Source: Pseudorhodobacter sp. PARRP1 (GTDB taxonomy: Bacteria > Pseudomonadota > Alphaproteobacteria > Rhodobacterales > Rhodobacteraceae). Taken from it: DNA of 64,000 bases. The DNA is taken from assembly GCA_002256245.1 (NCBI GenBank), contig NKIU01000001.1, forward strand, positions 124,001 through 188,000, written 5' to 3'. Positions 27,107-62,619 of this stretch are shown here, piece by piece; positions within the stretch are counted from its first letter, which is position 1; every line of letters begins with the position of its first letter. Position numbers and translations under genes: made by a program. The notes beneath the pieces were generated by a model. That model searched no databases. It was not told the origin of the DNA and saw only the letters and a program-made list of their open reading frames with translations.

Positions 27107-27535
27107 ATGACCACGCTCAACCTTATCAAACTCAGCGTCGGCACCGAGTCGGTGGATGACCTCAGCGCCTGGCACCGCGCCCACGCCCATGTCTGGGCCC
27201 CCGGCACCACCGAACACGTCACCCGCATGTGGCCCAAACGCGAGGATGAGATCCTGAACGGCGGCTCGCTCTACTGGGTGATCAAAGGCGTGATCCAGGC
27301 CCGCCAGCGCCTGATCGGCCTGGCCGAGCGTCGCGGCCAAGACGGCATCCTGCGCTGCGCCCTGGTGCTCGATGCCGAAATCATCCGCACCGAAGGCGCC
27401 CTGCGCCGCCCCTTCCAAGGCTGGCGCTACTTACCGGTGGAGGAATCGCCGCGCGATCTCCCCAAAACCCGCGCGCAGGATGACACCCTGCCCCCCGCGC
27501 TCGCCGCAGCCCTTGCCGAAATCGGCCTGCGCTAA
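27107..27535 (+). CDS. DUF1489 family protein
   Basis: A 142-residue cytoplasmic protein of the DUF1489 family, found across alphaproteobacteria with no established role. Typical stretches are LIKLSVGTESVDDL at the N-terminus, TRMWPKREDEIL, GSLYWVIKG and RPFQGWRYL near the end. It is a single plus-strand gene with a GGGG-type ribosome site, followed by a hairpin with a GGGGGT stem that is repeated at 51164-51184. Confidence 0.85.
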   Translation: MTTLNLIKLSVGTESVDDLSAWHRAHAHVWAPGTTEHVTRMWPKREDEILNGGSLYWVIKGVIQARQRLIGLAERRGQDGILRCALVLDAEIIRTEGALRRPFQGWRYLPVEESPRDLPKTRAQDDTLPPALAAALAEIGLR

Positions 27536-27589
27536 CCGCTTAAACTTATCTTAAATTGTTTCATCCGTTCTTAAATATCCCACGGGGGT

Positions 27590-27610
27590 CCGGGGGTGTG
27601 AAACCCCCGG
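27590..27610. terminator. Hairpin after DUF1489 gene (repeat-type terminator)
   Basis: CCGGGGGT-GTGAA-ACCCCCGG, preceded by TTAAATATCCCACGGGGGT. Nearly the same 40 or so bases lie at 51145-51185. This wording is common downstream of genes in Rhodobacteraceae; there is no T-run, so termination is inferred. Confidence 0.5.
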
Positions 27611-33331: not shown

Positions 33332-33532
33332 GCTGATTCCGCCCCTTAATTACGACTATTCCCGTAGATATTTACTGATTTAAGGCAGCAAACAACTATT
33401 TTCTTCTATTTTGCAGGTATCCGGAAGGGATTCGACCTGTTTGCGCATAAAATCGGCAGAGTCGGCGGGGTTTCGCACAACCAAAAGCCGCAACGCCGCG
33501 TGGCCGCAAACGCGGTTCTGCCCCCTCCTCCC

Positions 33533-33598
33533 GCCGCCCCGGACTTGATCCGGGGCCTCATGCTGTGAACAGAGGCCCCGGATCAAGTCCGGGGCGGC
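33533..33598. repeat. Long REP-like palindrome D, copy 1
   Basis: Perfect 27-bp arms (33533-33559 and 33572-33598) around a 12-base loop, with the core CCGGACTTGATCCGGGGCCTC. A second copy with two mismatches near the arm ends is at 52376-52441. The loops differ in sequence but are the same length. Confidence 0.9.
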
Positions 33599-33624
33599 AT
33601 GGGATAGGTGGCCCGGTAATGGTG

Positions 33625-33790
33625 CCGGCCTAAACCTCTTCCACCATCACCACGCCCTGCATGGCCTTGATCGCGCCCTTGATCTGCGCCGTCACCGGAT
33701 AGGGCTGCGGCAGCAGCACATCAATCTCGCGCCCGTCCTCATCAGGCACGCAAAGCGTGATCTGCGCGCGATTGCGCCCTTCAATCTTGG
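33625..33790 (-). pseudogene. Duplicated 3' end of dnaE
   Basis: These 166 bases match 34039-34204, the last 54 or so codons plus stop of dnaE, at a fixed offset of 414 bases, with only about four mismatches by eye. The same strand and the same stop codon are kept. It is not preceded by the rest of dnaE but by repeat A copy 2, whose minus strand happens to be open in the same frame, giving a 130-codon open frame (33630-34022) that I do not think is a gene. Confidence 0.9.
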
Positions 33791-33794
33791 ACAA

Positions 33795-34006
33795 TCTGGC
33801 AAAGGCCATCGCCTTTGCCATGCGCTGCGGGTGCCGCTGAAACCGCCGGGCCTCAAAGGCCCGGCCAGCGCCCGACCCGCCGATGGCGGGCGCTTCTCGT
33901 CCGCCGGGTCGGGCGCTGGCCTCACCGGATCTATCGTTGACCCGACAACAGCGTGAAACCGCACGCACGGGCGGGGAAACGCAATGCGTTTCCTGGCTCC
34001 GCCCGG
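33795..34006. repeat. Dispersed multi-hairpin repeat A, copy 2
   Basis: Same hairpin order as copy 1. Hairpin 1 reads GGCAAAGGC-CATC-GCCTTTGCC, a paired G-C to A-T change relative to copy 1. Hairpin 3 is full length here: CCAGCGCCCGACCC ... GGGTCGGGCGCTGG, with an inner GCCGATGGCGGGC-type fold. It fills the gap between the two dnaE ends. Confidence 0.88.
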
Positions 34007-34043
34007 ATATAGCCGCAGGCAAGCGCCTGCATGTCGCCCCGGC

Positions 34044-37526: not shown

Positions 37527-37603
37527 GGGGGGAGAGTAGCGCGGCAAAACGATGGGGGGAAGGGCACGTTCGCGCCGTTCTGGCCTATGGTTCAATCACA
37601 ACA

Positions 37604-38480
37604 AAGGGCAACGCCCGTCCGCCGGGTGGGCGAACCACAGAATTTCTAGGCACTTTATCACGCAACAAATCCCCCAAAAGTTCTAGGCGCGACATGGCAA
37701 AAGCGCCCGCCCGAGGGGGCGGACGGGCGCTGCCCGGCGGCGCATGCGCGCCTTGATTCCGGGCAAGGCTGGCTTGCTTTTCAGCCGTCTCAAAGCAAGA
37801 CCTGCCCACCCCACAGGCAGCACCCTACCCCCTTCCCCAAGCCGCCCCGGCGCAGGCCGGGGCCTCACCCTAAACCGCATCCCCCCACAGGGCAGCGCCC
37901 GTCCGCCGGGTGGGCGAACCACCGATATTCTAGGCACTTTATGCCTCAGCAAATCCCCCAGAACTTCAAGGCACGACATAGCAACAGCGCCCGCCCGAGG
38001 GGGCGGACCCCTTTCAGCGATTGCAAGCAATCGCTTACCGGGCAATGGGGCGCTGCCCGGCGGCGCTAAAGCGCCTTGATTCCGGGCAAGGCTGGCCTGC
38101 TTGGCAGCCCTATCAAAGCAAGAGTTGCTCACCCCACAGGCATCACGCTACCCCTTTCCCCAAGCCGCCCCGGCGAAGGCCGGGGCCTCAACCCAAACCC
38201 CATCACCCCCACAGGGCAGCGCCCGTCCGCCGGGTGGGCGAACCACCGATATTCTAGGCGCTTTATGCCTCAGCAAATCCCCCAGAAGTTCTAGGCGAGA
38301 GCCCTCAATAGCGCCCGCCCGAGGGGGCGGACGGGCGCTGCCCGGCGGCGCTAAAGCGCCTTGATTCCGGGCAAGGCTGGCTTGCTTTTCAGCCGTATCA
38401 AAGCAACTGCTGCCTACTCCATAAGCATCTCCCCCAAGCCGCCCCGGCGCAGGCCGGGGCCTCGCCCGCAGCACCTCCAC
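37604..38480. repeat. Tandem array C: three units of 284-324 bp
   Basis: Three direct copies begin near 37604, 37888 and 38212. Each starts GGGCARCGCCCGTCCGCC and continues GGGTGGGCGAACCAC, TTCTAGGC-CTTTAT, AAATCCCCCA and a palindromic GCGCCCGCCCGAGGGGGCGG. Then come GGCGCTAAAGCGCC (altered in unit 1), ATTCCGGGCAAGGCTGGC and CCGCCCCGGCG-AGGCCGGGGC. In unit 3 the outer 18-bp arms (38214-38231 and 38326-38343) are perfect inverted repeats. Unit 2 has a 39-base insertion containing AGCGATTG-CAAG-CAATCGCT. I see no gene in 37527-38734 beyond this array and the possible small RNA. Confidence 0.9.
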
Positions 38481-38538
38481 CCCAAATCCTTAACAAATCC
38501 TTAAATCCACCACCCCAACCCACTGATATCAAACAACT

Positions 38539-51087: not shown

Positions 51088-51163
51088 TCGCCAACAGAGC
51101 ACGCCGAAAACCCCTAAACTTTATCTAAAATTTTTCATCTGTTCCTAAATATCCCACGGGGGT

Positions 51164-51184
51164 CCGGGGGTGTGAAACCCCCGG
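51164..51184. terminator. Hairpin after the VOC gene (second copy of the 27590 type)
   Basis: CCGGGGGT-GTGAA-ACCCCCGG, with the same upstream AAATATCCCACGGGGGT wording as at 27590-27610. Confidence 0.5.
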
Positions 51185-52362: not shown

Positions 52363-52375
52363 CCCGCAATCCCAA

Positions 52376-52441
52376 GCCGCTCCGGACTTGATCCGGGGCC
52401 TCTGCGCCCACCACGAGGCCCCGGATCAAGTCCGGGGCAGC
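52376..52441. repeat. Long REP-like palindrome D, copy 2
   Basis: Arms of 27 bases around a 12-base loop, sharing with copy 1 (33533-33598) the core CCGGACTTGATCCGGGGCCTC. Two positions near the outer ends no longer pair. The loop sequence is different. Confidence 0.88.
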
Positions 52442-52537
52442 GCACCGCGCGGGGCAAGCCAAACCGCGTTGGGGATTCCCGCCGAGCCTCGCAAATCCCC
52501 CACTGACAAACCCCGCGGCCTCTGGCAAATTACGTCG

Positions 52538-53329: not shown

Positions 53330-53360
53330 GGTTGACGCCCCCACTGCAACCCGTCACGTG

Positions 53361-53571
53361 CGGGCGGAAACCGGAAACGCATTGCGTTTCCCCGCCCGTG
53401 TGTGCGGGTTCACCCTGTAGTCACGTCAGCGAAAAACCCAATGAGGCCAGCGCCCGACCCGGCGGGCGAGAAGCGCCCGCCATCGGCGGGTCGGGCGCTG
53501 GCCGGGCCTTTGAGGCCCGGCGGTTTCAGCGGCACCTGCACCACGTGACGAAGGCGATGGCCTTCGCCAGA
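53361..53571. repeat. Dispersed multi-hairpin repeat A, copy 3 (inverted)
   Basis: The same element as at 2432-2620 and 33795-34006, in reverse orientation: hairpin 4 comes first and hairpin 1 (GACGAAGGC-GATG-GCCTTCGCC, with one G-T pair) last. It lies between the convergent lysozyme and dimethylglycine dehydrogenase genes. The flanking bases up to 53658 show nothing else. Confidence 0.88.
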
Positions 53572-53658
53572 TCACCAAAGGTGCGTGTCGATCCAACCCC
53601 AAAAGCAAAGGGCGGCAGGATCACGCCCACCGCCCCCATGCCTCAAACCTTCGGCAGA

Positions 53659-56329: not shown

Positions 56330-56522
56330 CGAAACCGCCTGATGAACCTTCCAGTGGAAGGTTCATCGGTTTCGTTGCGCATAAGGCTGAAAGCCGTTGT
56401 GCAAGGGGCGTTGGGCAGCAAACCACCGTTGCCAATCTGCCCGCGCCTGACTGGGCTGGCGCGGTAACGCGCCTGCCTCCGGGCAGGCAGGCGCGGGCAG
56501 ATTTGTCTGCGGCCAAATCTGC
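56330..56522. repeat. Structured repeat B, copy 1
   Basis: Series of perfect stems. P1 is CGAAACC/GGTTTCG (56330-56336 with 56368-56374) around GATGAACCTTCC-AGT-GGAAGGTTCATC. P2 is TTGCGCA/TGTGCAA with inner GGCT-GAA-AGCC (56375-56404). P3 is a 16-bp stem 56434-56449 with 56488-56503, enclosing GGCGCG-GTAA-CGCGCC and GCCTGCC/GGCAGGC. P4 is GGCAGATTTG/CAAATCTGCC (56497-56506 with 56513-56522), which shares bases with the 3' side of P3. The second copy is at 61846-62039. The rest of the 56155-56530 gap should hold the dimethylglycine dehydrogenase promoter. Confidence 0.88.
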
Positions 56523-56530
56523 CAAACCCC

Positions 56531-57322
56531 CTACCCCCGCCGCATCTGCCCAAACACCGCCACCAGCGCGAAAATCACCGCCGCCGCACTGACAATCGAC
56601 GGCCCCGCAGGCGTGTCCTGCCAGAGCGACAGCCGCAGCCCGACAAGGCACGCCAAGGCCCCAAACCCGGCCGCATACAGCGCCATCGCCTCGGGCGTGC
56701 GCGCAAGCCCCCGCGCCGCCGCCGCCGGGATGATCAACATCGCCGCGATCAACAGCGCCCCCACGATCTTCAGCGCCACCGCCACCACCAGCGCCAGGGC
56801 CAGCGTCAGCACCAGCCGCTCGCGGTCCGGGTTCAACCCCGAGGCATGTGCCAAATCCTCGTTCAGAGTCGCGGTCAGCAGCGCCTGCCAGCGCCAAACC
56901 AGCGACGCCACCACCACCAACGCGCCCCCCCAGATAAACCCCAGATCAGCCTTCGACACCGCCAGAATATCGCCGAACAGATAGGTCGAAAGATCCGCCC
57001 GCACCCCCGGCACATAGGAAATCGCCACCAACCCAAACGCCAGTGCCGAATGCGCCAGCACCCCCAAAGTGGTATCCATCGCCCAGCCCCTAGCTGCCAG
57101 CGTCGAGACCGTGCCCGCCATCGCCAGCGCCACAACCAGCGTGCCCACCCCAATCGGCAGATGCAGCGCCAGCGCCAAAGCCACGCCCAGAATCGCCGCA
57201 TGGGCCGTGGCATCGCCAAAATACGCCATCCGCCGCCACACCACGAAAGACCCCAGCGGCCCCGTCGCCAGCGCCAATCCCACCCCGGCTAAAGCCGCCC
57301 GCACCAGAAAATCGTCAAGCAT
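56531..57322 (-). CDS. znuB: Zinc ABC transporter permease ZnuB
   Basis: A 263-residue inner-membrane permease with about eight hydrophobic helices. ABC-3 family features include GPLGSFVVWRRMAYFGDATAHAAILG near the N-terminus (the DAxxHxxL-like metal-path region) and ALKIVGALLIAAMLIIPAAAARG near residue 185. The ATG at 57322 overlaps the znuC stop by eight bases and gives the usual MLDDFLVRA start. Last gene of zur-znuC-znuB; repeat B copy 1 begins nine bases after its stop. Confidence 0.93.
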   Translation of the reverse strand: MLDDFLVRAALAGVGLALATGPLGSFVVWRRMAYFGDATAHAAILGVALALALHLPIGVGTLVVALAMAGTVSTLAARGWAMDTTLGVLAHSALAFGLVAISYVPGVRADLSTYLFGDILAVSKADLGFIWGGALVVVASLVWRWQALLTATLNEDLAHASGLNPDRERLVLTLALALVVAVALKIVGALLIAAMLIIPAAAARGLARTPEAMALYAAGFGALACLVGLRLSLWQDTPAGPSIVSAAAVIFALVAVFGQMRRG

Positions 57323-58088
57323 GATTATGTCCATGATGCGGGTCAGACGGCGTGCGCCCGTAAGCATCCACCCCGGTCGGCTCGTGGCTGTGATCGTGTT
57401 GGTGCTGATAGAGCGCCAGCGCGCCCTGCGACCCCAGCCCGAACAACGCGCGGTATTCCGGCGCGTTCGATACCACCACGGGCGAGCCCTGACAGCAGAT
57501 ATGCCCGTTCAGACAAATCACCCGGTCACTCGCCGCCATCACCACATGCAGATCGTGGGAAACCATCAGCACCGCCGCCCCGGTGTCGCGCCGCACCTCG
57601 TCAATCAGCCGGTAGAACCCGGCCTCGCCCGGTTGATCGAGGCCCTGCGTCGGCTCGTCGAGAATCAATATCTGCGGCCGCACCAACAAGGCCCGCGCCA
57701 GCAGCACGCGCTGAAACTGCCCGCCCGACAGCCCCGCCATCTGCCGCGTCTCCACCCCTGGCAAACCCACCCGCGCAAGGGCCGCCGTGGCGTCCGCATC
57801 CGCCACCCGGACGGGAAGCGACAAGAACCGCCGCACTGTCATCGGCATAGAGCGGTCAATCGACAGCTTTTGCGGCACATAGCCCAACCGCAACCCCGGC
57901 GCGCGCATGACCGTCCCGGCAGCCAGCGGCAAAATCCCCAACAGCGCCCGCAGCAGCGTCGATTTGCCCGATCCGTTCGGCCCAAGGATCGTCACGATCT
58001 CGCCCGCCTCAATCGCAAGCGACACATCCGTCAGCACCGGCTCGGCCCCGAACCGCACCGAAATCCCCGTGGCCGCGATCAGGCTCAT
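57315..58088 (-). CDS. znuC: Zinc ABC transporter ATPase ZnuC
   Basis: A 257-residue ATPase. Walker A reads LGPNGSGKSTLLRALLG, the signature is LSGGQFQRVLLARAL and Walker B is ILILDEPTQGLD. The His-rich tail (HQHDHSHEPTG ... HHGHNHA) is common in zinc systems. The ATG at 58088 overlaps the zur stop (ATGA). It drives zinc uptake with ZnuA and ZnuB. Confidence 0.95.
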   Translation of the reverse strand: MSLIAATGISVRFGAEPVLTDVSLAIEAGEIVTILGPNGSGKSTLLRALLGILPLAAGTVMRAPGLRLGYVPQKLSIDRSMPMTVRRFLSLPVRVADADATAALARVGLPGVETRQMAGLSGGQFQRVLLARALLVRPQILILDEPTQGLDQPGEAGFYRLIDEVRRDTGAAVLMVSHDLHVVMAASDRVICLNGHICCQGSPVVVSNAPEYRALFGLGSQGALALYQHQHDHSHEPTGVDAYGRTPSDPHHGHNHA

Positions 58089-58594
58089 GCCGCCACCTGA
58101 CAGCTTGGGCACAATCCCAGCGCCTCAACGGTGCTGCGCTCGATCACAAATCCGCTGGTCGCCGCAGCCCCCTGCAACGCCACCATCACCGGGGCGGCGG
58201 GTGCTTCGGCCACCACATTGCAACCCCGGCAGATCAGAAACACCGGCTGATGCGCCTCGCCCGGATGCATACAGGCGGTAAAGGCGTTCAGGCGGCGGAT
58301 GCGGTGCGCAAGCCCCTGTTCTTCCAGAAAATCCAGCGCGCGGTAAGCCACCGGCGGCTGATTGCCAAAGCCCTCGGCGGCAAGCCGGGTCAGCACATCA
58401 TAGGCCCCCAGCGCGCGATGTTCTTCCAGCAAAATCTCCAGCACGCGGCGGCGCACCGGGGTCAGCCGCAGGCCCTTTTCGGCCACCAAAGCCGCCGCCC
58501 GCGCCAACGCATCCGCGGCGCAATGCGCATGGTCATGCGCGGCAAAGGCCAGATCGGGGGCATCGCAGCCCGGACATGTGTGATCATCTGCCAT
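58085..58594 (-). CDS. zur: Zinc uptake regulator Zur (Fur family)
   Basis: A 169-residue Fur-family repressor with a Cys/His-rich N-terminus (CPGCDAPDLAFAAHDHAHC), the DNA-binding GLRLTPVRRRVLEILLEEHRALGAYDVL and PPVAYRALDFLEEQGLAHRI, and structural zinc pairs CRGC and CPSC. With zinc bound it should block the shared zur/znuA control region. The ATG at 58594 is 16 bases from the palindrome. First gene of zur-znuC-znuB, divergent from znuA. Confidence 0.93.
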   Translation of the reverse strand: MADDHTCPGCDAPDLAFAAHDHAHCAADALARAAALVAEKGLRLTPVRRRVLEILLEEHRALGAYDVLTRLAAEGFGNQPPVAYRALDFLEEQGLAHRIRRLNAFTACMHPGEAHQPVFLICRGCNVVAEAPAAPVMVALQGAAATSGFVIERSTVEALGLCPSCQVAA

Positions 58595-58609
58595 AGCGGC
58601 CCCTTGACA

Positions 58610-58624
58610 TGTTATAATATAACA
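58610..58624. promoter_or_regulatory. Zur-box palindrome between zur and znuA
   Basis: TGTTATA-A-TATAACA is a perfect 15-base inverted repeat matching the alphaproteobacterial Zur site as I recall it. TTGACA at 58604-58609 directly abuts it and could be the -35 element of znuA, so a bound repressor would cover both divergent promoters. Confidence 0.85.
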
Positions 58625-58663
58625 ATCATACCGCCCCTCGCCGCAAAACGAAAGACCCAACCG

Positions 58664-59578
58664 ATGCGTTATATCATATCCCTCGCCCTTGCCAGCCTGC
58701 CAACGCTTGCGCTTGCCAAAGTCCCGAACGTCGTGACCGATATCCCGCCCGTCCACGCGCTTGTGGCGCAGGTGATGGGCGATGTTGGCTCCCCGGTTTT
58801 GCTGCTGGAAAAGGGCGCAGACGAGCATGATTTTCAACTCCGCCCCAGCCAGATGCAAAGCATCGCAGACGCCGACACCGTGATCTGGATCGGCCCGGAA
58901 CTGACGCCGTGGCTTGACCGCGCCATGGTGGACAGCAAAGCGGTATCGCTGCCGCTTCTGGACGCAAAAGCCACCCAAACCCAACCCTATCCCGAAGGCC
59001 AAGGCGAAGAAGAAGAGCAACACCACGCCGACGAACCCGGCCACGCCCATGACGGCACCGATCCGCACGCGTGGATGAACCCGGCCAATGCCGAGATCTG
59101 GACCGATCTGATCGCCGCCAACCTCTCGGCCCTCGACCCCGAACACGCCGCCACCTACGCCGCCAACGCCGCCGCCACCAAGGCCCGCATCGCCGCGATG
59201 GATGCCGAGATCACCGCGCAACTGGCGCCGATCAAAGACAAATCCTTCGTCACCTTCCACGCCGCCTATGGCTACTTCGCCGCCCATTACGGCCTTGCCC
59301 GCCACGGCTCATTGGCCTTGGGCGATGCCACCACCCCAGGTGCCGCCAAACTGACCGCACTGCAAGCCGAACTGAAGGCCGGGGCCTACACCTGCGCCTT
59401 CCCGGAAATCCAGCACGACCCCGCAATGCTCACGCAACTGATGGCCGACACCCCCACCAAACTGGGTCAACCGCTTGACCCGGTGGGCTCCTCGCTCGAT
59501 TTCGGGCCAGACGCCTACGACACCTTGATGCGCACCATCGCCAAAACCTTGGCCGATTGCCTAAGCGCCAAGCCCTGA
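58664..59578 (+). CDS. znuA: Zinc ABC transporter substrate-binding protein ZnuA
   Basis: A 304-residue periplasmic zinc-binding protein of the cluster A-I family. The signal peptide MRYIISLALASLPTLALA is followed by VVTDIPPVHALVAQVMG with the first zinc histidine. DEHDFQLRPSQ comes next, then an acidic/His-rich loop (GEEEEQHHADEPGHAHDG) and the ligands DPHAWMNP and TFHAAYGYFA. The ATG at 58664 lies 40 bases beyond the Zur box. It partners ZnuB and ZnuC. Confidence 0.95.
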   Translation: MRYIISLALASLPTLALAKVPNVVTDIPPVHALVAQVMGDVGSPVLLLEKGADEHDFQLRPSQMQSIADADTVIWIGPELTPWLDRAMVDSKAVSLPLLDAKATQTQPYPEGQGEEEEQHHADEPGHAHDGTDPHAWMNPANAEIWTDLIAANLSALDPEHAATYAANAAATKARIAAMDAEITAQLAPIKDKSFVTFHAAYGYFAAHYGLARHGSLALGDATTPGAAKLTALQAELKAGAYTCAFPEIQHDPAMLTQLMADTPTKLGQPLDPVGSSLDFGPDAYDTLMRTIAKTLADCLSAKP

Positions 59579-59638
59579 ACGTCCCGGCTTGACCTTGGCG
59601 CGGCGATGGTGCCCCATCGCCGCAAACAGGGGGCGGCG

Positions 59639-60589
59639 ATGGCATATTTCGGCACTACGGCAGCGGGCAAGGCGGTTGAGCGCATCACCCTGACCGCGGG
59701 CGATCTGACCGCCCAGATCCTGACATGGGGCGCCGTTCTGCAATCGGTCCGCTTGGCCGGAGTGCCCCACGATCTGACCCTCGGCTCGGAATCCCTCGCC
59801 GATTACGAGGGCGATCTGCGCTACCACGGCTCGATCATCGCCCCCGTCGTCAACCGCCTGACCAATGCCGCAGCCCCCCTGAACGGCAACACCCTGCACT
59901 TTCAGGTCAATTTCAACGGCCAGCACACCCTGCACTCGGGCGATGCGGGCACGCATCTGAAGGTCTGGGACATCCTGCACGCCTCAGAATCCGAATGTCG
60001 CCTTGCCCTCACCCTGCCCGACGGCGAAGGCGGCTTCCCCGGCAACCGCAGGATTGAGGCGCATTTTGTGGCCCATGCCCCCGCCACCCTGCGCCTGACC
60101 ATCACCACCACAACCGACGCCGACACCCTGATCAACGCCACCAACCACAGCTATTGGAACCTTGATGGCAGCGCCGATTTCACCGGCCACACGCTGCAAA
60201 TCCCCGCCGACCACTACCTGCCTACCACGCCCGAATTCATCCCCACCGGCGAAATCCGCGCGGCCACCGGCATGTTCGATTTCCGCAAGCCCAAGGCGAT
60301 TTCACCCCACACCCCCGACCTTGATAATTGCTTTTGCCTTGGCACCCAGCAAACCCCCTTGCGCGATGCCCTGATCCTGACAGGCAAATCCGGCCTGCAC
60401 CTGACCGTCGCCACCACCGAACCCGGCATCCAGGTGTATGACTGCCGCCACGATCACTTCAAAGGTGTCGCGATCGAGGCGCAAGGCTGGCCCGATGCGC
60501 CGAACAAACCGGGCTTTCCACCGATCAGCCTGCGCGCGGGCGCGACCCTGCGCCAGATCACCGAATGGCGCTTCACCCCGCCCGCCTGA
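59639..60589 (+). CDS. Aldose 1-epimerase (galactose mutarotase)
   Basis: A 316-residue mutarotase interconverting the anomers of hexoses such as galactose or glucose. It has the beta-sandwich landmarks IIAPVVNRLTNA, the catalytic His in NATNHSYWNLDG near residue 175, LDNCFCL, and the catalytic Glu in VAIEAQGWPDAPN near residue 290. AGGGGG precedes the ATG at 59639. No galactose operon is present, so its sugar is unknown. Confidence 0.9.
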   Translation: MAYFGTTAAGKAVERITLTAGDLTAQILTWGAVLQSVRLAGVPHDLTLGSESLADYEGDLRYHGSIIAPVVNRLTNAAAPLNGNTLHFQVNFNGQHTLHSGDAGTHLKVWDILHASESECRLALTLPDGEGGFPGNRRIEAHFVAHAPATLRLTITTTTDADTLINATNHSYWNLDGSADFTGHTLQIPADHYLPTTPEFIPTGEIRAATGMFDFRKPKAISPHTPDLDNCFCLGTQQTPLRDALILTGKSGLHLTVATTEPGIQVYDCRHDHFKGVAIEAQGWPDAPNKPGFPPISLRAGATLRQITEWRFTPPA

Positions 60590-60690
60590 GCGTCGTCGCC
60601 TGAAACAGTTGAAACAAAAGGTGCAGCCAGCCCCCTTCCCCCGCCACAAAACTCAACCTACTGCTGTTGGCGCTAACGCAAGGGGGCAGC

Positions 60691-61848
60691 ATGTCTGAAG
60701 CTATCACCGGCCGCTGGGCCGTCGCGGCAATGTTCGCCACCAACGGCTTTGTCATGGGCGCTTGGGCCCCGCAAATCCCCCTGCTGCTGTCCCGCCATGG
60801 CATCAGCAACACCGCCCTTGGCCTGCTGATCCTTGCGCTTGGCTTGGGCGCTGTCAGCGCGATGCTGTTCGCGGGACGCCTGATACAATCCTACGGCTCA
60901 CGCACCATCGCGCGCTGCTTCGCGCTGGCCACCGTTCCGGCACTCCCCTTGGTCGTGCTGGCCCCGAACCTGTGGCTACTCACCCCCGCGATGACCCTGA
61001 TGGGCGCGGTCATCGGCTGCATGGATGTGGCGATGAACGCCAACGCAGTCGAGGTAGAGCGCCGCTTGGGCCGCGCCATCATGTCCTCCAGCCACGGCTT
61101 CTGGAGCCTTGGCGGCTTTATCGGCGGCCTTGGCGGCAGCTATGTGATCGCGCAATGGGGGGCCGAGCCGCAGGCGCTGATCGTCGCGGCGATTGCCTTG
61201 GCTACCGTGCTGGTCGCCGGGCCAAAGCTGATCACCGATGCCCCCCACCCGACAGCCGAAAAGCCCGCGCCACATGCGCTGCTGCCCCGCGATGCCAGCC
61301 TGTGGATCTTGGGATTCATGGCGCTGTTCTCGATGGTGCCCGAGGGTGCGGTGCTCGATTGGGCCGCGATCTATCTGGGGCGCGAGCTTGGGGCCGATAT
61401 CTTCCGCGCCGGTCTGGGCTTTGCTGGTTTCGCCGCCGCCATGGCGGTCATGCGCTTTGCGGGTGACCGTCTGCGCAATCGCTTTGGCGCGGTGAAAACC
61501 CTGCAAATTTCAGGCGTTATCTCGGCGGCTGGCCTGCTGGGCGGTGCGCTTGCACCCAATGACATCGTGGCCATCGCCAGCTTTACCTTCGCAGGCCTTG
61601 GCGTGGCGAACATGGTGCCGATCATGTTTTCCGCCGCCGGAAACCACCCCGGCATGGCGGCAGGGGCTGCGATTTCCACCGTCACGATGGTGGGCTACGC
61701 AGGCATCCTCGTTGCCCCCTCGACCATCGGCTTTGTCGCCGATCACATCGGCTTCCGCGCCACCTATGCCGCCTTGGCGGTGGTCTTGCTGGTGGTCACA
61801 GCACTTGCGCCAAGGGTGAAAGCCGCCGATGGGGTGAAGCCACTTTGA
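60691..61848 (+). CDS. MFS permease (FucP/YbjJ-like)
   Basis: A 385-residue major facilitator with about twelve hydrophobic helices. The N-terminal half carries WAVAAMFATNGFVMGAWAPQIPLLLSRHG and GCMDVAMNANAVEVERRLGR, the latter a signature of the YbjJ-type branch. The ATG at 60691 follows AAGGGGG and is preferred to an upstream TTG. Its stop codon lies inside the first stem of repeat B copy 2. The substrate is not predictable; a sugar or organic anion would fit the mutarotase next door. Confidence 0.88.
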   Translation: MSEAITGRWAVAAMFATNGFVMGAWAPQIPLLLSRHGISNTALGLLILALGLGAVSAMLFAGRLIQSYGSRTIARCFALATVPALPLVVLAPNLWLLTPAMTLMGAVIGCMDVAMNANAVEVERRLGRAIMSSSHGFWSLGGFIGGLGGSYVIAQWGAEPQALIVAAIALATVLVAGPKLITDAPHPTAEKPAPHALLPRDASLWILGFMALFSMVPEGAVLDWAAIYLGRELGADIFRAGLGFAGFAAAMAVMRFAGDRLRNRFGAVKTLQISGVISAAGLLGGALAPNDIVAIASFTFAGLGVANMVPIMFSAAGNHPGMAAGAAISTVTMVGYAGILVAPSTIGFVADHIGFRATYAALAVVLLVVTALAPRVKAADGVKPL

Positions 61849-62039
61849 AGCGAAAGAAAACTCTGCGGGGCAGAGTTTTCCGCTTCATTGCTCATAAGGC
61901 GGAACGCCGTTGAGCAAGGGGTGTGGTGCCACAAACCGCCCATTTGGAAATCGGGGCGCGCCTGACTGGGCGGGCGCGGAAACGCGCCTGCCACGGGCAG
62001 GCAGGCGCGGCCCGATTTGGCGCGGGCCAAATCGGGCAA
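61846..62039. repeat. Structured repeat B, copy 2
   Basis: Counterpart of 56330-56522 in the same order. P1 is TGAAGCG/CGCTTCA (61846-61852 with 61881-61887) around GAAAACTCTGC-GGG-GCAGAGTTTTC. P2 is TTGCTCA/TGAGCAA with inner GGCG-GAA-CGCC (61888-61917). P3 is 61948-61964 with 62002-62018 (one mismatch), enclosing GGCGCG-GAAA-CGCGCC and GCCTGCC/GGCAGGC. P4 is GCCCGATTTGG/CCAAATCGGGC (62010-62020 with 62027-62037), again overlapping the 3' side of P3. It sits between two convergent genes. Confidence 0.88.
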
Positions 62040-62061: not shown

Positions 62062-62619
62062 TTACGCCGCCACCCGCGCCAAAACCTCATCCACACTGGC
62101 CACCTGCGCGAACTCGCCGTCCAGATTGGCCAAAGTCATCTCCAGCACATCCGCCGCCGCCACTTCCCGGCCATCGCGCAAAATCTGGCGGAAGTTGATC
62201 AGCGCATCGCCCACCACCGTCGTGGCATAGCCGAGGTTTCCCGCCATCCGCGTTGTGCTTTCCACGCAGTAATTCGCAGCCCCACCAATCACCACCAGAT
62301 CGGTGATGCCCTGCGCTGCCAGATGATCGCCCAAACCCGTGCCGATAAACCCAGACGAGCCGTGCTTGATGAAAACCGCCTCATCCGCCCGCGGTGCGGC
62401 ACAGGGCTGCACCGCTGAACCGGGCTGATCGGCATGAAAGCTGTCGCCGGGGTTCGGGTCGTGGTGATGCACATGCACCACCGGCAAGCCTTTGCTTCGA
62501 AAGGCTTTCAGCAAAGCGGCAATGCTGGTCTCGGCGTCTGGATTGCCCCAGACATAGCCCTTGGCGCGCCGTTCGACAAAAGCCATCTGCACGTCAATCA
62601 CCAGCAAAGCCGTTGCCAT
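62062..62619 (-). CDS. Isochorismatase-like cysteine hydrolase
   Basis: A 185-residue hydrolase of the isochorismatase superfamily. The catalytic triad is visible: Asp in ALLVIDVQMAF, Lys in AVFIKHGSSGF near residue 96, and the nucleophile Cys in GGAANYCVESTTRMA near 130, which favours a cysteine amidase or hydrolase (nicotinamidase/ureidoacrylate type) over true isochorismatase. The ATG at 62619 lies next to the DUF1993 stop, so the two are co-translated. The substrate is unknown. Confidence 0.88.
   Translation of the reverse strand: MATALLVIDVQMAFVERRAKGYVWGNPDAETSIAALLKAFRSKGLPVVHVHHHDPNPGDSFHADQPGSAVQPCAAPRADEAVFIKHGSSGFIGTGLGDHLAAQGITDLVVIGGAANYCVESTTRMAGNLGYATTVVGDALINFRQILRDGREVAAADVLEMTLANLDGEFAQVASVDEVLARVAA

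Follow-up and report, generated by a model that had tools for sequence, protein, structure and literature searches.

Two copies of a hairpin-built repeat

The window, a stretch of 64,000 nucleotides from Pseudorhodobacter sp. PARRP1 (contig NKIU01000001.1, positions 124,001 to 188,000), contains two copies of an element of about 195 bases, both on the plus strand, that belong to a hairpin-built repeat family present in many copies in this genome. Copy 1 is flanked by the start of a FAD/aminomethyltransferase gene and by an ABC-3 family permease gene (56531-57367, minus strand), whose stop codon is 5 nt away. The first three bases of copy 2 are the stop codon (TGA) of an MFS gene ending at 61848, and a convergent isochorismatase-family gene, facing the copy, ends at 62062. 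Each copy consists of P1 (a hairpin with a 5′ bulge), P2 (a hairpin with an internal loop), a linker with about ten free bases, and a module designated M, which comprises P3 and P4 (Table 1). Elements with this P1-P2-linker-P3-P4 order are called type I. The arms of M follow one another in the order B1-A1-A2-A3-A4-B′-loop-B2 and can adopt alternative folds, either a rod (B1·B′, A1·A4, A2·A3) or separate hairpins (A1·A2, A3·A4 and B′·B2, the last being P4). Folding z-scores are -6.82 for copy 1 and -8.75 for copy 2, with none of the 200 dinucleotide shuffles of each being equally stable.

A first-pass annotation, made from the sequence alone, had described these two copies as differing mostly by compensated stem changes, and attributed this to selection on an RNA (or hairpin DNA) structure. 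Both the copies and the compensated changes were recovered in our analysis: the outer stems of P2, its inner stem (GGCT/AGCC versus GGCG/CGCC) and the start of P3 are as described, while P1 is unrelated in sequence yet perfectly nested in both copies, with additional unpaired bases on its 5′ side. The GNRA tetraloop reported between GGCGCG and CGCGCC is common in the family (42 of 76 readable copies) but not conserved; a scripted reading, which left 5 of 81 copies unread, found it in 18/26 copies from the PARRP1 genome (hereafter own copies), 2/6 congeneric copies and 22/44 distant copies.

Table 1. Position and parts of the two copies in the window.
Feature	Position	Strand	Description
Copy 1, type I (P1-P2-linker-P3-P4)	56330..56525	+	covariance model 184 bits
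Copy 1 P1	56330..56374	+	outer stem CGAAACC/GGTTTCG, 5′ bulge GCCT (4 nt), inner stem 12 bp, loop AGT
Copy 1 P2 hairpin	56375..56404	+	TTGCGCA..TGTGCAA
Copy 1 module M	56434..56523	+	arm B1 56434-56441, A1-A4 56442-56495, B′/P4 hairpin 56496-56523
Copy 2	61846..62039	+	covariance model 231.5 bits
Copy 2 P1	61846..61887	+	outer stem TGAAGCG/CGCTTCA, 5′ bulge AAA (3 nt), inner stem 11 bp, loop GGG
Copy 2 P2 hairpin	61888..61917	+	TTGCTCA..TGAGCAA
Copy 2 module M	61948..62037	+	arm B1 61948-61955, A1-A4 61957-62009, B′/P4 hairpin 62010-62037

Family size and distribution

A BLAST search with copy 1 resulted in 45 matches in the PARRP1 genome, some of which are fragments of a single copy or match it on the reverse strand. 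A covariance model (R1) was built from an alignment (A2) of 34 copies, 27 of them own copies (of 30 fetched) and seven congeneric. In the PARRP1 genome, R1 has 42 matches at E ≤ 1e-6, and 35 places reach at least 64 bits, two of them with module M alone. Distribution over the congeneric set (15 genomes, PARRP1 included) is patchy: eight genomes are matched by R1, while seven have no match at E ≤ 1e-6. The congeners (labelled G) carry 17 (G003), 17 (G006), 11 (G012), 10 (G004), 7 (G011) and 1 (G014) matches at this threshold, and G010 has four, all below 48 bits.

Wider searches were run with stricter filters and few candidates scored per genome. Among 295 Rhodobacteraceae genomes, 41 are matched at E ≤ 1e-4 and 12 reach at least 64 bits, PARRP1 included; in a class-wide sample of 289 genomes, PARRP1 is the sole genome matched at E ≤ 1e-6. 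A 23-letter pattern from module M, scanned against named genomes, matched at least 112 stretches. Among the 80 matches listed by title, 65 carry genus names that we take to belong to Rhodobacterales, 12 come from the metagenome-assembled genome (MAG) 'alpha proteobacterium 3107', two from genomes titled Proteobacteria bacterium and one from a MAG of Robiginitomaculum. A copy from a congener (L032) and one from a Cypionkella MAG (L146) are identical in sequence, which makes Cypionkella the probable genus. At another locus (L043:1073-1994), three full-length copies with alternating orientation lie inside 1 kb. Neither an absence of further copies nor free drift without paired change, the outcomes that the first-pass annotation had named as contrary to its proposal, was observed.

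Covariation of the stems

RNAalifold predicts 58 pairs on A2, 25 of which show compensated double changes. Applied to 100 of 198 loci, R1 returned 141 matches, weak and reverse-strand ones included. In the alignment of these matches, which is fitted to the model, 51 of the 58 pairs have two-sided changes, 93.0% of cells are paired (74.1% after shuffling) and 900 cells are two-sided (213 after shuffling); none of 500 shuffles reached the observed values for two-sided pairs, paired cells or two-sided cells. In a MAFFT alignment of 50 copies that is independent of the model (A4), P4 (B′·B2) is paired in 388 of 397 cells (97.7%, versus 83.6% shuffled) and B1·B′ in 370 of 400 (92.5%, versus 78.4% shuffled). 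These two helices are mutually exclusive, yet both covary. For A3·A4, whose letters are almost constant, 399 of 400 cells are paired. Pairing of A1·A2, A1·A4 and A2·A3 is at about the shuffled level because these arms hardly vary, and neither fold of P3 is therefore favoured in type I. On Leisingera plasmids, A1 and A4 change in concert when read by eye, and modules from Leisingera and Phaeobacter, read in the same way, appear to favour the rod fold with A1·A4. Across the element family, something maintains stem pairing.

Stems formed by RNA tolerate G-U pairs but not A-C. In the best 54 of the 141 rows of the model-fitted alignment, the cells of P1, P2 and P4 comprise 1938 Watson-Crick, 37 G-U, 28 A-C and 123 other combinations; G-U outnumbers A-C in 16 sequences, A-C outnumbers G-U in 15, and the two are equal in 23. 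As a control, 27 RNase P RNAs (30 loci fetched; matches in 40 of 41 family genomes) were aligned with MAFFT and folded with RNAalifold, resulting in 130 G-U versus 10 A-C in variable pairs and 209 versus 12 in all pairs. By the same route, the element (A4) has 13 G-U versus 15 A-C in variable pairs and 16 versus 17 in all pairs. Fisher tests against RNase P give p values of 4e-9 for 37:28 and 5e-8 for 13:15, in cells that are not independent. Of the properties expected of an RNA acting from a single strand, the element has covarying stems beyond chance, and not a clear excess of G-U over A-C. As G-U barely exceeds A-C in P1, P2 and P4, pairing appears to be kept nearly strand-blind, which would fit DNA palindromes or, as a possible alternative, RNA hairpins required on both strands.

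A one-sided bulge in P1

In 28 own, 7 congeneric and 47 distant copies (82 in total), P1 was parsed exhaustively with up to eight unpaired bases permitted on each side. Unpaired bases are in excess on the 5′ side in 81 of them, on this side only in 74 and on both sides in seven. The 5′ excess mostly amounts to three bases (48 copies) or four (26), and one copy has none. The stem sequences themselves vary freely between copies. Inside the 3′ half of P1, a TTT is present in all 28 own copies, but only in 18 of the 47 distant ones. A mini-element of about 70 bases, consisting of GTGA, a P1-like bulged hairpin, GAACG and a GC hairpin, occurs at L204:852-921 and also within L049 and L107; it lies within hairpin loops of the element, directly after CTGCC..GGG.

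Placement at gene ends

Gene context was assigned with a simple custom gene caller, which placed 68 of 75 copies, the other seven being too close to a contig end. Of the placed copies, 31 lie between convergent genes, 34 between tandem genes and three between divergent genes (including L028, scored divergent though a gene stops about 12 nt upstream and left in the count), and none lies inside a gene. For background, all gaps of 30 bases or more in the window and in the loci were combined (n = 159), of which 23 are convergent, 83 tandem and 53 divergent. Relative to these, the copies show a convergent excess (31/68 versus 23/159, p 1.2e-6) and a divergent deficit (3/68 versus 53/159, p 5.9e-7). 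Against the gaps of the window alone (6 convergent, 15 tandem, 8 divergent), the respective p values are 0.024 and 0.002, and for own copies against these same gaps 0.028 and 0.079. Own copies often begin or finish within about 40 bases of a gene end. Between tandem genes there is no preferred orientation, with 15 copies in the direction of the genes and 19 opposite.

A scan for intrinsic terminators found one site at copy 1, which is P1 itself (shuffle mean 1.0), and none at copy 2 (shuffle mean 0.7). With hairpins followed by T-runs being no more frequent than in shuffles at either copy, an identity as intrinsic terminator was rejected. A palindromic repeat of type GGCCCCGGATCAAGTCCGGGGC lies near several copies, in the flanks of L005, L015, L022 and L263.

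Gain and decay at orthologous sites

Orthologous sites were compared for six own copies. Copy 1 is absent in all eight congeners inspected, and three of these (G004, G006, G011) have a plain hairpin of the ACGATTTT..AAAATCGT type in its place. The element is likewise absent from the site of copy 2 in G003, G004, G008, G012 and G014, while in G006 the same genes flank a short copy of opposite orientation. The remaining four show both empty and shared sites: L009 is absent in all four congeners inspected; L018 is absent in five and common to PARRP1 and G003; L011 is shared with G003, G011 and G012 and absent in G004; L028 is shared with G003 and G011, is a remnant in G012 and is absent in G004. 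Dispersed copies that are present or absent at orthologous sites, the general mark of a mobile element, are thus found among these six.

Shared orthologous copies contain both compensated changes and broken arms. L028 has almost the same P1 and P2 as its ortholog in G003, but its linker and M differ from the ortholog's as one block, a pattern suggestive of exchange between copies. In deletion variants, P3, A1-A2, A3-A4 or everything past B1 is missing, and the loss of A1-A2 recurs (L029, Leisingera M597, caerulea S122). Neither exact ends nor a target-site duplication emerged from comparison with the congeners or with the Leisingera and Phaeobacter plasmid strains, in which the aligned variants are mostly deletions within the module.

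Module M beyond type I

Module M also occurs on its own, both in other genomes and in PARRP1 (L023/L263 and L264). A typed consensus of M matched 34 plasmid records (Phaeobacter 22, Leisingera 11, Tritonibacter 1); copy 2 of the window has no match in plasmid or phage collections. On a plasmid of Phaeobacter inhibens 2.10 (L269:3001-3081), M follows rfbB after 18 bases, in a group of rfb genes that share one direction, and DSM 17395 (L270) has a deleted form. These two strains form a natural pair in which an effect of M on expression could be studied. In other Rhodobacterales, parts of M are carried by an element of 206-218 bases that resembles a miniature inverted-repeat transposable element (MITE), with GACCTCTGCATAA as terminal inverted repeats; 22 candidate pairs were found, some of them spurious. 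The MITE-like element occurs in L092, L140, L175, L197 and others, and is present several times in the MAG 'alpha proteobacterium 3107'.

What may maintain and spread the family

We favour, at a rough probability of 55%, a family of non-autonomous mobile DNA repeats with hairpins kept by shape, surviving at gene ends. Here, P1 would be the 5′ end, a bulged hairpin conserved in shape, and module M the 3′ part that can also occur alone. Intergenic sites close behind genes, where an added copy may do little harm, would have acquired copies time and again; these would afterwards decay through drift and through deletion between the arms repeated within them, with the stems kept complementary at the DNA level. 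The near-invariant, one-sided bulge of P1 suggests a protein that recognises a DNA hairpin, probably single-stranded, by its shape, for which structure-reading transposases and integrases form a precedent. Spread would occur by transposition through a trans-acting enzyme that reads P1, and the position at gene ends would reflect tolerance only. A tentative and distinctly less probable extension is that such shape-read hairpins are mobile throughout the Rhodobacteraceae. In that case, the putative enzyme would read the 3-4 nt bulge of P1 on single-stranded DNA, leaving the stem letters free, and M would be a shared cargo or a second recognition end, captured by type I elements, by the MITE-like element with terminal repeats and by stand-alone copies.

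Several observations weigh against the mobile-repeat reading. Searches of the 15 congeneric genomes for Y1 transposases, Y2 transposases and integron integrases found no mobilising enzyme. Y1 matches (PF01797) are present in three of the 15 (PARRP1, which is G000, and G004 and G007) and do not track the element; G003, G006, G011 and G012 carry the element without a PF01797 match, though a divergent enzyme could escape. Y2 matches (PF04986), present in four (PARRP1, G005, G006, G012), do not track it either, and no integron integrase exceeds the curated cut-off in any of the 15, with weaker matches in all 15 and also in 14 control genomes. A gene-bearing long form was not seen: seven places have the 5′ half only or a variant, of which six extend beyond it (one ends at the contig end), and P3b words were found in none of these six within the next 3 kb, where open reading frames were not read singly. 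A flanking 4-mer is shared in 13 of 75 copies versus 13.45 expected by shuffling, giving no sign of target-site duplication. Among 28 own copies compared, identity ranges from 77.8 to 93.3% (median 85.7%); because even the closest are only 93.3% identical, no fresh burst is visible. The opposite-orientation copy in G006 could be an inversion, and the patchy distribution could partly be due to loss. Strand symmetry is also imperfect, as G-U outnumbers A-C by 50 to 28 over all 58 pairs (54 rows), and such symmetry would equally follow from hairpins needed in the RNA of both strands. In PARRP1 (G000:C8:98597-100427), a tyrosine recombinase adjoins a Y2 transposase, with the same neighbours in G005 and G006.

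Hairpins that serve the host at gene 3′ ends, either by terminating transcription in both directions or by shielding the ends of both messenger RNAs, form a rather unlikely alternative. Selection on both transcripts would also yield strand-symmetric pairing, and it would suit the gene-end and convergent placement, the plain hairpin that replaces copy 1 in three congeners, the TTT in P1 of every own copy and the fact that the sole terminator-like site at copy 1 is P1. However, the terminator scan did no better than shuffles, most distant copies lack the TTT, module M of P. inhibens 2.10 sits between co-directional genes, congeners retain the same gene pairs without the element, and some neighbouring genes also have an ordinary-looking hairpin, for instance left of L002 and L005. 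Less probable still is that mutation alone keeps the arms complementary, through template switching in imperfect palindromes that copies arm onto arm without structural selection. This would account for the small G-U excess and the few unpaired cells, for the recurrent deletions between repeated arms and for the block change of linker and M in L028 and G003 with P1 and P2 near-constant. Pure arm-copying should erase the bulge of P1, though, and its retention on one side in 81 of 82 copies therefore argues against such copying and for the reading of shape on one strand; the nearly invariant letters of A3·A4 would in addition need a constraint on sequence.

We regard a strand-specific structured RNA (a small RNA, a riboswitch-like or a 3′ untranslated region element), which was the principal proposal of the first-pass annotation, as very improbable. 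It would fit the two-sided changes in 51 of 58 pairs, the low folding z-scores and the overall G-U surplus of 50 to 28, and the three-way covariation of B1, B′ and B2 would suit a switch. The G-U:A-C ratio of 13:15 against 130:10 for RNase P by the same route speaks against it, as do the mixed orientation between tandem genes (15 and 19), the GNRA loops in just over half of readable copies, the absence of an Rfam match above cut-off at the element and the often empty orthologous sites. Of the initial suggestion of selection on an RNA or hairpin DNA structure, the maintained pairing stands, its DNA side fits better, and its RNA side is disfavoured by these ratios (37:28 included), orientations and loops.

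Covarying stems are commonly regarded as proving a structured RNA, and the element family is a worked warning in this respect, having two-sided changes in 51 of 58 predicted pairs without the strong G-U signature of a real RNA from the same genomes. A simple test is to compare the numbers of G-U and A-C, with a matched RNA as control. If a shape-reading enzyme exists, the conserved bulged hairpin would be a direct substrate for finding it.

Other repeats in the window

The window holds further repeats. A dispersed family with members in both orientations, 83-89% alike, occurs at 2405-2622, 33784-34007 and 53358-53598. An inverted pair of 74 bases, 89% complementary, at 33532-33605 and 52369-52442 may constitute a repeat of its own. 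A repeat of 77 bases (86%), with CCCACGGGGGTCCGGGGGTGTGAAACCCCCGG at its end, lies at 27534-27610 and 51108-51184. At 37583-38494 there are nested repeats, about 142 and 162 bases long, with a spacing of 284-324.

Comparison with known systems

A known RNA family was rejected, as a scan of the window at Rfam gathering thresholds returned tRNA only; at E ≤ 5, the best overlap with the element was a microRNA family at 29.8 bits, versus a cut-off of 60. The earlier statement that no described family matches is consistent with this and with the literature searched, in which no published description was found, including passages of PMC3733652, PMC12306157, PMC8632094, PMC2864571 and PMC6006769. The element family thus appears as a large repeat class in a well-studied marine and soil group that this literature does not describe.

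Repetitive extragenic palindromic (REP) sequences, including bacterial interspersed mosaic elements (BIMEs) and REP doublets forming hairpins (REPINs), are mobilised by the transposase TnpA-REP (RAYT). They are intergenic, high-copy, non-autonomous palindromes, as is the element. Some REP hairpins have a bulge between two stems, according to a passage of PMC6006769, which also gives none or few Y1 homologs for the Alphaproteobacteria. REPs measure 20-40 bp in the description of PMC3733652 and have a GTAG or GTGG foot, whereas the element is about 195 bp long and four of 75 copies show either foot close to P1. With Y1 transposases not tracking the element, REP/RAYT was rejected. Palindromes with a CGTC tag, described for Alphaproteobacteria in a section of PMC3733652, are intergenic and from the same class as the host of the element; their short stems (8-9 bp), small loops (4-5) and tag are unlike it. 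The main text of that paper has no word beginning Rhodobacter, Roseobacter or Paracoccus. Two Rhodobacterales motifs in the relevant passages of PMC8632094 lie between cco operons and upstream of cysS, a setting that differs from placement at gene ends.

The enterobacterial repeats RU-1 and RU-2, likened to MITEs in a passage of PMC2759123, are 100-200 bp long, intergenic and multi-copy. The element resembles them and MITEs in size class, intergenic position and copy number. It differs by strong sequence turnover with retained shape, and by having neither terminal inverted repeats (none seen by reading type I) nor a target duplication signal, on which grounds a MITE was rejected. Non-autonomous, palindrome-ended elements derived from IS200/IS605 carry hairpins close to each end and lack both terminal inverted repeats and target duplication; the element shares all three properties. 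It differs in that its flanks have no conserved target tetranucleotide and in that Y1 matches are missing from four element-rich congeners. IS91-like transposition by a Y2 enzyme was rejected, since the distribution of PF04986 does not track the element.

The attC site of integrons is a hairpin of variable sequence that is recognised by its shape, with extrahelical bases on one side. An attC identity was rejected, as no congener has an integrase above cut-off, and the outer stems of P1, read from its parses, differ from attC by having no AAC/GTT boxes conserved across genera. In its likeness to attC, P1 is kept in shape, variable in sequence and has unpaired bases on one side.

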